DNA from: Planctomycetota bacterium
GTDB lineage: Bacteria > Planctomycetota > Planctomycetia > Planctomycetales > Planctomycetaceae
Assembly (NCBI GenBank): GCA_003671275.1
Contig: QWPB01000063.1
Span: forward strand, 1 to 64,000
Direction of reading: 5' to 3'
DNA length: 64,000 nucleotides
Shown: one piece after another, positions 44,920 through 48,796 of the stretch
Position numbering within the stretch: position 1 is the first letter of the stretch
Layout: each line of letters starts with the position of its first letter
The notes under the pieces: generated by a model
The model's input: the letters and a program-made list of their open reading frames with translations, nothing else
Database searches by the model: none
What the model was told of the DNA's origin: nothing
Position numbers and translations under genes: made by a program

Positions 44920-46629
44920 TTGAACACCCACATGTTGTCCCCGCTGATCCTGATGGTTCTGACCGTCCACTCAGTGGCCGCAGCTGAGGTCGCTCCCCAA
45001 GTTCTGAAAGCCCAATCCGCTCGCATCGCCACCGTTGCCCAGGCCATGCCCGCCGTAGTCGCGATCTTCGATAATGAGGGGAAAGGCGGTGGTTCCGGGG
45101 TTCTCATCCAGCGGGACGGTCTCACGGTGACCAACTTCCACGTCGTGGAAGGGATGGGACCGTTCATGAAGTGCGGGCTGAGCGATGGAAAGCTGTACGA
45201 CGCCGTGGTCATCGGCATCGACCCCACGGGGGACGTGGCACTGATCCAGATGCAAGGGCGAACCGACTTTCCGGTGGCTGAGATTGCGGATAGTGATACG
45301 GTACAGATGGGGGACTGGTGCTTCGCGATGGGGAACCCGTTCCTGTTGGCGACCGATTACCAGCCCACCGTGACTTATGGCGTGGTAGCCGGAACCCATC
45401 GGTATCAATACCCGGCGGGCACCTTTCTCGAATACACCGACTGTCTGCAGGTCGATGCCTCGATCAATCCCGGAAACTCCGGCGGACCGCTGTTTAACAA
45501 CCAGGGCCAACTAATCGGCATCAACGGACGGATCTCCGTCGAGAAACGTGGCCGCGTGAATATCGGGGCGGGATACGCCATCTCGATCAACCAGGTGATG
45601 CACTTCAAGGACCACTTGCTCAGTGGCCGGATCGTGGACCACGCCACATTGGGAGCGACGGTCACGACCGACGCCGAAGGACGAGTGGTCATTGCCCAGA
45701 TTCTCGAACAGTCCGAGGCCTTTCGGCGCGGCTTGCGATCCGGCGATGAACTCGTCGAGTTCGCGGGCCGACCGATCCGGAGTGTGAACCAATTCAAGAA
45801 TGTCCTGGGGATCTATCCTGCCGGATGGAAATTGCCACTGACCTACAAACATGAGGGCGAACAGAAGTCGATCGTTGTCCGGCTGCGAACGCTGCATCGC
45901 CGGGCGGAACTGGTGGGCGAGGACGAAGAGGCCCCGCCCGAACACCCCCGGCCCAAACTCCAGTTGCCCGAACTTCCCTTCGAGATTCCGGGACTGAACA
46001 AGAAACCGCCGCATGCTCACCTGTTTGAAGGAAAGGCCGGGTACGGGAATTTCTACTTCAACAAGCTGGCGACGGACCGGGCCATAGAGTCGATGCTGCC
46101 CTGGGGCCAGTTTGCGGCAGCCACGGGAACCTGGTCCCTGAACCTGAAAGGTCCCCGGAATGTGCCGATGCAGATCAAACTGACGGACACGACCGTCGCC
46201 GCGCGGATCGATGAGACCGCTTACATCCAGAATCTGTCTGAACCCTATCTCGATAAGCCGCCGGGTTCCGGGGGTCTGCTGATTGCGATGGACCATTTGC
46301 GGCGAATGCTGATTGCCCCGCACAAACAGTTCTCCGAGTTCTACTACGCAGGTTCGGAGCCGCTGGATGGCTCCGGTCCGCGAGTGGATGTGTATGTCGC
46401 TCTGCACAGCACGGCGATCAGCCGCTGGTACTTTCAACGGGAACCAATCGCACTGGTGGGCTGGGATACCGCGATCGAAGAAGACACCGACGAATGCGAA
46501 ATCCGGTTCACCGAACTGGCCGACTTCGGCGGTCGCAAGCTGCCGAAGAAGCTGACGGTACGCCGGGCCGAGAGTCTGTTGGGTGAGTTTGAAATCGAGT
46601 CGGCGACGATGTCGGGGGAGCAGCCGTGA
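44920..46629 (+). CDS. HtrA-like serine protease with PDZ and extra C-terminal domain
   Basis: A 569-residue exported protease. After a signal peptide (LSPLILMVLTVHSVAAA) comes a trypsin-fold domain with an intact triad: His in VTNFHVVEG, Asp in DPTGDVALI and Ser in NPGNSGGPLFN. A PDZ domain (about 245-330; SEAFRRGLRSGDELVEF) follows. The last 220 residues form an additional domain (LFEGKAGYGNFYFNKL to the end) not present in DegP and not recognised. GAAGGGG lies six bases before the TTG at 44920; an ATG at 44932 is the alternative start. Its TGA overlaps the start of a catalytically dead relative (GTGA). Confidence 0.86.
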   Translation: MNTHMLSPLILMVLTVHSVAAAEVAPQVLKAQSARIATVAQAMPAVVAIFDNEGKGGGSGVLIQRDGLTVTNFHVVEGMGPFMKCGLSDGKLYDAVVIGIDPTGDVALIQMQGRTDFPVAEIADSDTVQMGDWCFAMGNPFLLATDYQPTVTYGVVAGTHRYQYPAGTFLEYTDCLQVDASINPGNSGGPLFNNQGQLIGINGRISVEKRGRVNIGAGYAISINQVMHFKDHLLSGRIVDHATLGATVTTDAEGRVVIAQILEQSEAFRRGLRSGDELVEFAGRPIRSVNQFKNVLGIYPAGWKLPLTYKHEGEQKSIVVRLRTLHRRAELVGEDEEAPPEHPRPKLQLPELPFEIPGLNKKPPHAHLFEGKAGYGNFYFNKLATDRAIESMLPWGQFAAATGTWSLNLKGPRNVPMQIKLTDTTVAARIDETAYIQNLSEPYLDKPPGSGGLLIAMDHLRRMLIAPHKQFSEFYYAGSEPLDGSGPRVDVYVALHSTAISRWYFQREPIALVGWDTAIEEDTDECEIRFTELADFGGRKLPKKLTVRRAESLLGEFEIESATMSGEQP

Positions 46630-47693
46630 GAAGAACAACCGTGCTGAATCGGCAATCCCGAAGGTTTCTCCCGTGGGTGATGTGGGCCTGGGTGTTCGGA
46701 GTGGGACTGTGGGGAGGGAATCACCCGTTGTCCGCTGCGGATCGCTCGCCGGTCGAGGCTGAAGTGCAGTCCAAAGTCGTCAAGCTCTACGGAGCGGGCG
46801 GGCTGGCAGGACTGCAAGGGTACGGCACCGGGTTCATCGTTTCACCCGATGGGCATATCGCCACGATCTGGAGCCACCTGCTCGACGCCGATGCCGTGGC
46901 CGTGGTGTTGTCCAATGGACGTCGCCTGATGGGGCGGGTCGTCGCAGCTGAACCCAAGCTCGACCTCGCCTTGTTGAAGATCGATGCCACGGGACTCGAA
47001 CACTTCGACCTGACCCGTTCGGCAGCCGGGGGTCCGGGGACGCGGGTCTTCGCTTTCAGCAACATGTTCAAGGTCGCTGCCGGAGACGAACCAGTCTCGA
47101 TGCAGCACGGGATCATCTCGGCCCGGACCAAGCTGGCGGCGCGGCGCGGACGGTTCGCTTCGAACTATTCCGGACCGGTTTATGTCGTCGATGCCATCAC
47201 CAATAACCCCGGAGCCGCCGGGGGGATTCTCACCGATCGACGAGGCCAGTTACTGGGAATGCTGGGACGCGAGCTTCGTGATGCCCAGTCACAGGTATGG
47301 GTGAACTATGTCGTCCCTGCAGGCGAGATCACTCCGACGCTCCAAGCCATGATGCGTGGCGAGTACACCCGCGAAAAGGTCGTTGATCCGCTGGCCAATG
47401 CCCGCGAGATTCCTCCGCGAACGTTTGGGCTGATTCTGGTTCCGGACATCGTATATCGGACGCCCGCCTACATCGACGAGATCGTCCCGGGCTCGGTGGC
47501 GGCTACCGCTAAACTCCAGCCGGATGATCTGATCGTGTTCCTGAATGGCAAGGTCGTGGGCTCGGTCCGCACACTGCAGGCTGAGTTGAATCTGCTCCAG
47601 CCCGGGGAGGACGCCGAGTTCGTTATCCGCCGGGGATCGGAACTGATTACCGTCCAGTTTCCGGTGCCCCTCTCGCTGGATGAGAAGCAGTGA
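46626..47693 (+). CDS. HtrA-like pseudoprotease with PDZ domain (catalytic Ser replaced by Ala)
   Basis: A 355-residue exported protein with the same fold order as its neighbour: signal peptide (FLPWVMWAWVFGVGLWGG), trypsin-like domain, PDZ domain (about 260-350; GSVAATAKLQPDDLIVFLNG). His (IWSHLL) and Asp (KLDLALLKI) of the triad remain, but the nucleophile motif that should read GNSGGP is NNPGAAGGILTD: Ala replaces Ser. It cannot act as a normal serine protease. It probably regulates or assembles with the active partner encoded just before it; the GTG at 46626 overlaps the partner's TGA and implies coupled, balanced synthesis. queG overlaps in the same way. Confidence 0.86.
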   Translation: MRRTTVLNRQSRRFLPWVMWAWVFGVGLWGGNHPLSAADRSPVEAEVQSKVVKLYGAGGLAGLQGYGTGFIVSPDGHIATIWSHLLDADAVAVVLSNGRRLMGRVVAAEPKLDLALLKIDATGLEHFDLTRSAAGGPGTRVFAFSNMFKVAAGDEPVSMQHGIISARTKLAARRGRFASNYSGPVYVVDAITNNPGAAGGILTDRRGQLLGMLGRELRDAQSQVWVNYVVPAGEITPTLQAMMRGEYTREKVVDPLANAREIPPRTFGLILVPDIVYRTPAYIDEIVPGSVAATAKLQPDDLIVFLNGKVVGSVRTLQAELNLLQPGEDAEFVIRRGSELITVQFPVPLSLDEKQ

Positions 47694-48796
47694 GCGGAGC
47701 ACCGCCTGCTCCCGACGAGATGTCACGGGCCATCAAGGAGCAGGCACACTCTCTCGGATTTGAACTGGTAGGAATCGCTCCTGCGGTGGCCCCTGAGACC
47801 CTGGCCCACTTCGAAGCCTGGCTCGCCCGCGGATTCGCGGGCAAGATGGCCTACATGGAGCGCCGCTGGGAAGCCTATACCCATCCCGAACATGTACTTC
47901 CCCCTGTGCGATCCGTGGTGATGCTCGGCATGGTTTATGGTTTTCGAGCCGAAGTCCGTGCCCGGGACCGGACCGCAACGGACGCCTCGCTCGTAAACGA
48001 CGCGCGGTCTCACCCCGCCATGGGCCGCATTGCGGCCTACGCGCAAGGCACCGTCGATTACCACAATCTCATCCGGGAGCGACTCAAGCAGCTCAGCGGT
48101 GCGATCCATACCCTGGCACCCGGCTCACGGACACGCGGGGTGGTCGACACCGCTCCACTTCTCGAACGAGACTTCGCTCGCCTGGCCGGACTCGGCTGGT
48201 TCGGCAAGAACACGCTGCTGATCAACAAACAGCGGGGAAGTGGTCTCTTCCTGGCCGCCCTGCTGACTGACCTGGAGTTGGAAACGGACGCCCGGCACGA
48301 CACCAGCCACTGTGGAAGCTGCACTCGATGCCTCGATGTCTGCCCCACCGGAGCCTTGCCGGAACCGTATCTGCTCGATGCCACACGGTGCATTTCGTAC
48401 CTGACGATTGAGCTGCGCGACCAGCCGGTTCCAGAAGAGTTACGCCAGGGAATTGGCGAATGGATGTTTGGTTGTGACTTATGTCAGACGGTTTGCCCTT
48501 GGAACCACAAGGCTTCCCTCGGGTCGGTTCCCGAACTGCAGCCGGACCCCGCACTCATCGGACGGACATTGAAAGAGTGGCTGCAATTGACCCCCGAGCA
48601 GTTCACCGAACAGCTGAAAGAAACTCCCTTGAGCCGTCCGGGCTGGGCTGGAATCCTGAGAAATGCCTGCATCGTGGCCGGGAATCTCAAGGCGTTGGAG
48701 GTAGTTCCGGAACTGACACAGTTGGCCGGAGATCCCGACCCCCTCGTCCGCGAGGCAGCCTGCTGGGCACTCACCCAGCTTGCTCGTGGGGGTTGA
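47690..48796 (+). CDS. queG: Epoxyqueuosine reductase
   Basis: QueG reduces epoxyqueuosine to queuosine in tRNA, the last step of the pathway, using cobalamin and two [4Fe-4S] clusters. The 368-residue length fits. The cofactor domain (residues about 1-180; DTAPLLERDFARLAGLGWFGKN is family-typical) precedes two ferredoxin-like cysteine sets: CGSCTRCLDVCPTGAL near 207 and GCDLCQTVCPWN near 260. A HEAT-like repeat closes the chain (REAACWALTQL). The GTG at 47690 overlaps the pseudoprotease stop (GTGA). The link with the HtrA-like pair is positional, with no clear functional reason. Confidence 0.95.
   Translation: MSGAPPAPDEMSRAIKEQAHSLGFELVGIAPAVAPETLAHFEAWLARGFAGKMAYMERRWEAYTHPEHVLPPVRSVVMLGMVYGFRAEVRARDRTATDASLVNDARSHPAMGRIAAYAQGTVDYHNLIRERLKQLSGAIHTLAPGSRTRGVVDTAPLLERDFARLAGLGWFGKNTLLINKQRGSGLFLAALLTDLELETDARHDTSHCGSCTRCLDVCPTGALPEPYLLDATRCISYLTIELRDQPVPEELRQGIGEWMFGCDLCQTVCPWNHKASLGSVPELQPDPALIGRTLKEWLQLTPEQFTEQLKETPLSRPGWAGILRNACIVAGNLKALEVVPELTQLAGDPDPLVREAACWALTQLARGG

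Follow-up and report, generated by a model that had tools for sequence, protein, structure and literature searches.

A conserved HtrA-type protease gene in Planctomycetota is accompanied by genes for two predicted pseudoproteases, a candidate envelope protease system

Results

A contig of a Planctomycetota bacterium (GenBank accession number QWPB01000063.1), of which the first 64,000 nucleotides are referred to here as the window, was found to carry a gene for an active HtrA-type serine protease, P1, joined to a gene for an HtrA-type paralogue that lacks the catalytic serine, P2. A third HtrA-type paralogue, P3, occurs in relatives. The loss of Ser in P2 is old and fixed. The three old paralogues probably act as one secreted envelope protease system in which P2 binds P1 and sets its activity, and a probability of about 0.6 is given to this reading.

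Three samples of relatives were compared. The class sample comprises 59 loci chosen from the best P2 matches obtained when 297 class genomes were searched, and the second sample comprises the best 80 of 405 places from a scan of a second contig collection; the two overlap in some genomes. The outside-class sample consists of 26 loci of the same phylum, contributed by every outside-class genome, out of 273, with a P2 match below 1e-50. Active-site positions 193 and 195 are given as chymotrypsin numbers.

P1 (569 aa; forward strand, 44920–46629) is predicted to start at a TTG codon at 44920, with 44914 as an alternative, and includes a hydrophobic leader, a trypsin-like domain (PF13365, 45091–45522, from Pfam and the AlphaFold model), one PDZ domain (PF13180, 45649–45882) and a C-terminal domain. 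Its TGA stop codon (46627–46629) overlaps the GTG start of P2 at 46626, such that the two open reading frames are joined by GTGA (46626–46629), in agreement with the initial annotation. P2 (355 aa; forward strand, 46626–47693) has a leader, a trypsin-like domain without the nucleophile and one PDZ domain. Signal peptides had been proposed for both proteins, and as far as the translations show this holds, since hydrophobic N-terminal leaders were seen by eye in each. In Pfam searches both proteins were above the cut-off for Trypsin_2 (E 2e-29 for P1 and 1e-20 for P2) and for a single PDZ domain, as first described, which is the architecture of the HtrA/Deg (S1C) family. The cut-off of 416 bits for NCBIfam degP_htrA_DO (TIGR02037) was reached neither by P1 (225.8 bits) nor by P2 (94.4 bits).

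The His-Asp-Ser triad of HtrA/Deg (S1C) proteases is complete only in P1, in the motifs NFHVV, DVALI and NPGNSGG (45466–45486, with the Ser codon at 45478–45480). The corresponding motifs of P2 are WSHLL, DLALL and NPGAAGG (47205–47225), in which His84 and Asp113 are present, Ala198 (codon 47217–47219) replaces Ser and the oxyanion-loop Gly196 is retained. These motifs bear out the initial reading of His, Asp and GNSGGP in the first protein and His, Asp and GAAGGI in the second. Downstream, a gene on the same strand that from its sequence we take to be QueG-like (47690–48796) overlaps the P2 stop by another GTGA and occupies the place that P3 has in many relatives; P1, P2 and this gene may share one transcript here.

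Ser was absent from the nucleophile position of P2 in all 59 class loci, all of the best 80 of 405 and all 26 outside-class loci. The residues found there were A 43, G 10, P 3, H 2 and T 1 in the class sample, A 55, G 23, E 1 and P 1 in the best 80 of 405, and Q 11, Y 6, P 5, F 2, E 1 and D 1 outside the class. The expectation that relatives would conserve Ala was only half correct, as Ser never occurs and Ala is one residue among A, G, P, Q, Y, F, H, T, E and D. The nearest relatives within the best 80 of 405, L099 and L135 (73% and 72% identity), read NPGAAGG; Ser in close relatives had been named beforehand as the sign of a strain-level mutation or sequencing error. Nothing beyond the single substitution favours such an origin, or a decaying pseudogene, and the chance of either is practically negligible in view of the absence of Ser from the three samples, the strong conservation of P2-specific alignment columns and the 100/100 support of the P2 clade. 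Sequencing error and strain mutation are ruled out by the relatives without Ser in all three samples.

The triad of P1 was intact in every row with a letter at the site: Ser in 57/57 class rows, 72/72 of the best 80 of 405 sample and 25/25 outside the class, His in 56/56, 71/71 and 24/24, and Asp in 56/56, 71/71 and 25/25, respectively. Gap rows were excluded from these counts (for Ser, 1/58 in the class and 2/74 in the second sample; for His and Asp, 2/58 and 3/74; for His outside the class, 1/25), and P1 of locus L090 is divided between two ORFs. P2 keeps His and Asp in the window protein, as had been noted, but neither is fixed, with His in 30/59 and Asp in 29/59 of the class sample. In the closer sample, the best 80 of 405, His is found in 66/80 and Asp in 57/80, and outside the class the aligned His is absent from most of the 25 readable P2s. 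Cryptic catalysis by another nucleophile could make use of His84 and Asp113 of the window protein and of the His common in its closer relatives, but the class counts and the lack of His in most outside-class P2s make it very improbable; as a general feature of P2, a cryptic triad is ruled out by this drift. As judged from the alignments, P2 is a conserved pseudoprotease.

Gly193 was present in P2 in 59/59 class rows and in 107/107 when the best 80 of 405 and the outside-class rows were pooled (one row being a partial domain). P3 has lost the triad, with Tyr at the nucleophile position in 52/53 class rows, 54/55 of the best 80 of 405 sample (including one from the window's own genome) and 26/26 rows outside the class, one gap row in 56 being excluded, and it lacks Gly193 throughout (0/53, 0/55 and 0/26, respectively). 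Its His is mostly Asn within the class. Taken with the argument made for MamO (see Discussion), the presence of Gly193 suggests that P2 may still build a peptide-binding groove, whereas P3, with a residue other than Gly at 193 and a bulky Tyr at 195, looks locked.

AlphaFold modelling of the window proteins and relatives gave a mean pLDDT of 84.8 for P1 and 87.7 for P2. In fold searches the P1 model matched DegQ and DegP with Z about 30 over 285–290 residues, and the protease domain of P2 matched DegS and MamO with Z about 23 over approximately 185 residues (rmsd 2.7–2.8). The matches of the whole-chain P2 model had an rmsd of about 10–14, so its PDZ domain would be placed differently from those of the matched structures. 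According to these models both proteins adopt the HtrA fold. Aromatic N-terminal residues clasp the known HtrA trimers; by our own reading such residues are absent from the N-termini of P1 and P2, and this was counted against the proposed system.

The C-terminal domain of P1 (46006–46626), described initially as an unknown domain of 220 residues, is indeed present and without a Pfam match in the window protein, its size being about 207 aa. In the model it is mostly beta, with about a dozen strands and some helices. The domain was found in 235 of the 297 genomes of the class, in most of them as a single match. DUF4292 was weakly matched by 4 of 25 members (best E 0.0015), a PDB sequence search with the domain gave a best match of only E 0.08, and in fold searches with the whole P1 model the matches were all taken up by the protease domain.

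P1 and P2 adjoin in 57/59 class loci and in 74 of the best 80 of 405 and are fused in four genomes; the two genes usually stay together, as had been anticipated. P2 stands without P1 despite sufficient room in 2/59 and 2/80 loci, respectively. All three genes occur together in 53/59 class loci and in 52 of the best 80 of 405, the latter count being partly cut by contig ends. The order is strictly P1-P2-P3 in 52 of the 53 complete class loci, and in the other, L080, the called start of P3 precedes that of P2. In these 53 loci, in-frame NTGA overlaps by a strict count join P1 to P2 in 23 and P2 to P3 in 19. P3 is less tightly linked than P1 and P2 are to each other: in 25 of the best 80 of 405 it does not adjoin P2, and 17 of these leave 2.2 kb or more of space; six of these loci (L101, L109, L111, L113, L119 and L125) seem to come from genomes with P3 on another contig. 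At the 26 loci outside the class, P2 and P3 were found in 26 and P1 in 25. Three genomes (G132, G018 and G021) have the three genes at separate places and still contain one live and two dead copies; the P2 genes of the first two are L039 and L043 of the class sample.

Natural in-frame fusions of P1 and P2 were found in four genomes of three families, with lengths of 979 aa (L199, 2952–5891 on the forward strand, and L206, 4279–7218 on the reverse strand), 973 aa (L209) and 1126 aa (L213), and the P2 half is without Ser. These fusions bear on the possibility that P2 is a competitive brake, a decoy or holding chaperone that would compete with P1 for unfolded or signal peptides and leave them uncut. 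Retention of the HtrA fold, the PDZ domain, the groove-forming Gly193 and the following Gly-Gly would suit such a role, but fusion in cis argues for action on P1 itself, and position 195 of P2 is occupied by quite different side chains (A, G, P, Q, Y, F), bulky ones among them; we regard the brake as quite improbable.

Presence of P2 and P3 in the 297 class genomes was scored with thresholds of best E below 1e-35 for P2 and below 1e-40 for P3, set after inspection of the tables and counted by eye. By these author-set thresholds the two genes were both present or both absent in 296 of 297 genomes (both in 242, neither in 54, P2 alone in 1, P3 alone in 0); one borderline genome, G015 (P2 at 2e-34), was scored as lacking both. 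Of the 54 genomes scored as having neither gene, 45 belong to a single family, f2, and are all of its sampled members. The system can thus be done without, and a large part of the co-occurrence reflects one clade and few independent losses. In a midpoint-rooted tree of 92 rows, P1, P2 and P3 each formed one clade (support 100/100, 100/100 and 100/99), with similar branching within the clades, each of which extends beyond the class; the tree gives no order of origin for the three. Co-occurrence, dispersal without loss, fusion, trees and overlaps together argue that P1, P2 and P3 belong together. One genome placed in the same phylum but outside the class (L189, G420:C91) carries P1-P2-P3 with class-like scores (P2 E 2.5e-120), as a result of transfer, contamination or a placement issue.

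In the genome of the window, P3 lies on a separate contig (G000:C133; L230:5531–7516) and has the motif SPANYGGPL. It is closely downstream, on the same strand, of two sucC- and sucD-like genes, presumably sucC-sucD. P3 is trypsin-like and contains two PDZ stretches; by Pfam, its class members also end in an alpha/beta-hydrolase domain, for which the closest solved sequence is that of LC-Est1C (E 2e-12). In several loci outside the class P3 is shorter and, judged by length, without this esterase-like domain. The P3 at L046:8196–10178 combines a pseudo-trypsin domain, PDZ and the esterase-like domain, and there are possibly two dead enzyme domains in most genomes. Ser was found at the presumed esterase nucleophile in 8/51 readable rows of one sample and 2/51 of the other, some of these rows also having a His further on, and the idea of P3 as a fully dead double pseudoenzyme is weakened by this minority. 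P3 differs strongly from P1 and P2 in its second PDZ and esterase-like domain and may act apart from them, which was counted against the preferred reading.

Upstream of P1, the 59 class loci encode an NPCBM-domain protein in 54, protein C4 in 51, C5 in 49 and a large protein, C9, in 33, the last count being limited by the length of the stretch taken. C4 and C5 are families without a Pfam match in the members scanned. These genes share a strand in nearly every case, and 22/26 outside-class loci contain one or more of the four. When four loci were extended, three contained homologous MoxR-like, DUF58-like and BatA/VWA-like genes before C9 (in the one scanned with Pfam, AAA_3 E 5e-62, DUF58 E 1e-49 and BatA E 2e-12), and the fourth contained only a homologue of the second VWA protein. 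One extended cluster (L215:8558–18220 and L046:1–10178) consists of MoxR-, DUF58-, BatA/VWA- and VWA-like genes, C9, C5, C4, the NPCBM protein and P1-P2-P3; C4 was unassigned in that particular genome. A separate 6-kb contig of the window genome carries C9 and part of C5, and P1-P2 are not beside the cluster there. This genome has thus lost both the P3 linkage and the upstream cluster, a further point counted against the preferred reading.

The conserved neighbourhood raises the alternative that P2, and P3, are independent PDZ/trypsin-fold adaptors or chaperones of a MoxR/VWA-type envelope complex, with no part in the P1 oligomer or in its regulation. Conservation of the NPCBM, C4 and C5 genes within the class and of cluster members outside it is in its favour, as are the extra PDZ and esterase-like domain of P3. 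The four P1+P2 fusions, however, tie P2 more closely to P1 than to the other genes, and the window keeps the P1-P2 pair away from the rest of the cluster; such independent adaptors appear unlikely, though with an appreciable share of the probability.

Discussion

These data are best read as describing a hetero-oligomeric protease of the envelope in which P1 supplies catalysis and P2, with or without P3, is a non-catalytic subunit. That the proteins touch, that one acts on another in trans and that the system is tied to MoxR is what we infer, as is the direction of the regulation. The initial proposal of a mixed envelope assembly in which the dead subunit senses ligands or gates the active one is supported in part, with sensing and gating as putative roles of P2. 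P1 would be the only catalytic subunit. P2, itself non-catalytic, would be dedicated to P1 and bind it directly, most likely by the protease-domain oligomerisation of HtrA proteins. The groove of P2, with its oxyanion-loop Gly and no nucleophile, and its PDZ domain may bind substrate or signal peptides, and through this binding P2 would set the activity or the substrates of P1. P3 would be a second, more strongly locked pseudoprotease (non-Gly 193, Tyr 195) serving as scaffold or adaptor. The system would serve a membrane complex encoded upstream in most of the relatives examined, made up of the NPCBM protein and conserved secreted or coiled-coil proteins and, where loci were extended, including MoxR, DUF58 and BatA/VWA proteins.

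A bolder form of this proposal, held tentatively and with some doubt, is an obligate P1-P2-P3 heterotrimer, in which two different dead neighbours would help to form a single active site and would switch it. The heterotrimer would provide proteolysis at the end of an envelope machine of the MoxR/VWA kind, old within the Planctomycetota. If true, paralogous subunits would divide the work between them in a family that has hitherto been regarded as homotrimeric.

Fusions and inherited dead partners suggest that the dead copies are working parts of a machine. Genes that are likely to be annotated automatically as serine proteases would thereby receive a common role in one conserved cluster of the Planctomycetota, an ordinary and old envelope system with active and dead HtrA proteins. 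It becomes possible to test, as a general question, how HtrA proteases are controlled in trans by subunits without catalytic activity, and the natural fusions are directly expressible.

Among the matches listed in literature searches, which covered few subscription papers, neither a planctomycete HtrA pseudoprotease set nor the MoxR link appeared in titles or abstract openings, and a word search in the Planctopirus limnophila essential-gene paper (PMC10632474) found no passage on these genes.

Compared with DegP, DegQ and DegS (S1C), the proteins share the fold and the PDZ domain, with the triad in P1, and differ in the extra C-terminal domain of P1 and in the dedicated dead paralogues. To our knowledge, the known bacterial DegP, DegQ and DegS act as homo-oligomers. 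Arabidopsis Deg5 and Deg8 are described as synergistic HtrA paralogues of one compartment, one of them without detected casein-degrading activity (PMC3640471). They were crystallised as S266A and S292A variants, names which imply that both natural proteins have Ser, whereas P2 and P3 are without it. For HTRA1, active and Ser-to-Ala subunits are reported to form active mixed trimers, in which an S328A subunit can restore an assembly-defective active one (PMC11252331). The combination of a dead Ser-to-Ala subunit with an active one is similar to that proposed here, but those trimers, as presented there, are a laboratory design and not a natural gene set.

The closest parallel is the magnetosome pair MamE/MamO, likewise an active HtrA protease and a trypsin-fold pseudoprotease of one gene cluster. 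In the MamO study, MamO is required for MamE-dependent proteolysis with its own triad dispensable, a non-Gly residue at position 193 is argued from its crystal structure to bar the active loop form, and the pairing of active and dead HtrA proteins is stated to have arisen several times in magnetosome clusters (PMC4794232). With MamO and the HTRA1 mixed trimers as precedents, activation of P1 would be at least as likely as inhibition. MamO, as described there, resembles P3 in lacking Gly193, differs from P2, in which Gly193 is present, and has a TauE-like transporter domain where P2 has a PDZ domain. The NCBIfam MamO cut-off of 800 bits was reached by neither P2 (42.7 bits) nor P1 (59.3 bits), and both were far under the MamE cut-off too. 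P1/P2 are thus best read as analogous to MamE/MamO yet as a separate lineage, unlike that pair in having two dead lineages, in extending beyond one class of the phylum and in being linked to a MoxR/VWA-type cluster. The principle of an active HtrA protease with a dead paralogue is already known from the magnetosome clusters; what is new is its age and spread within one phylum, the two dead lineages, the natural fusions and the MoxR-type neighbourhood.
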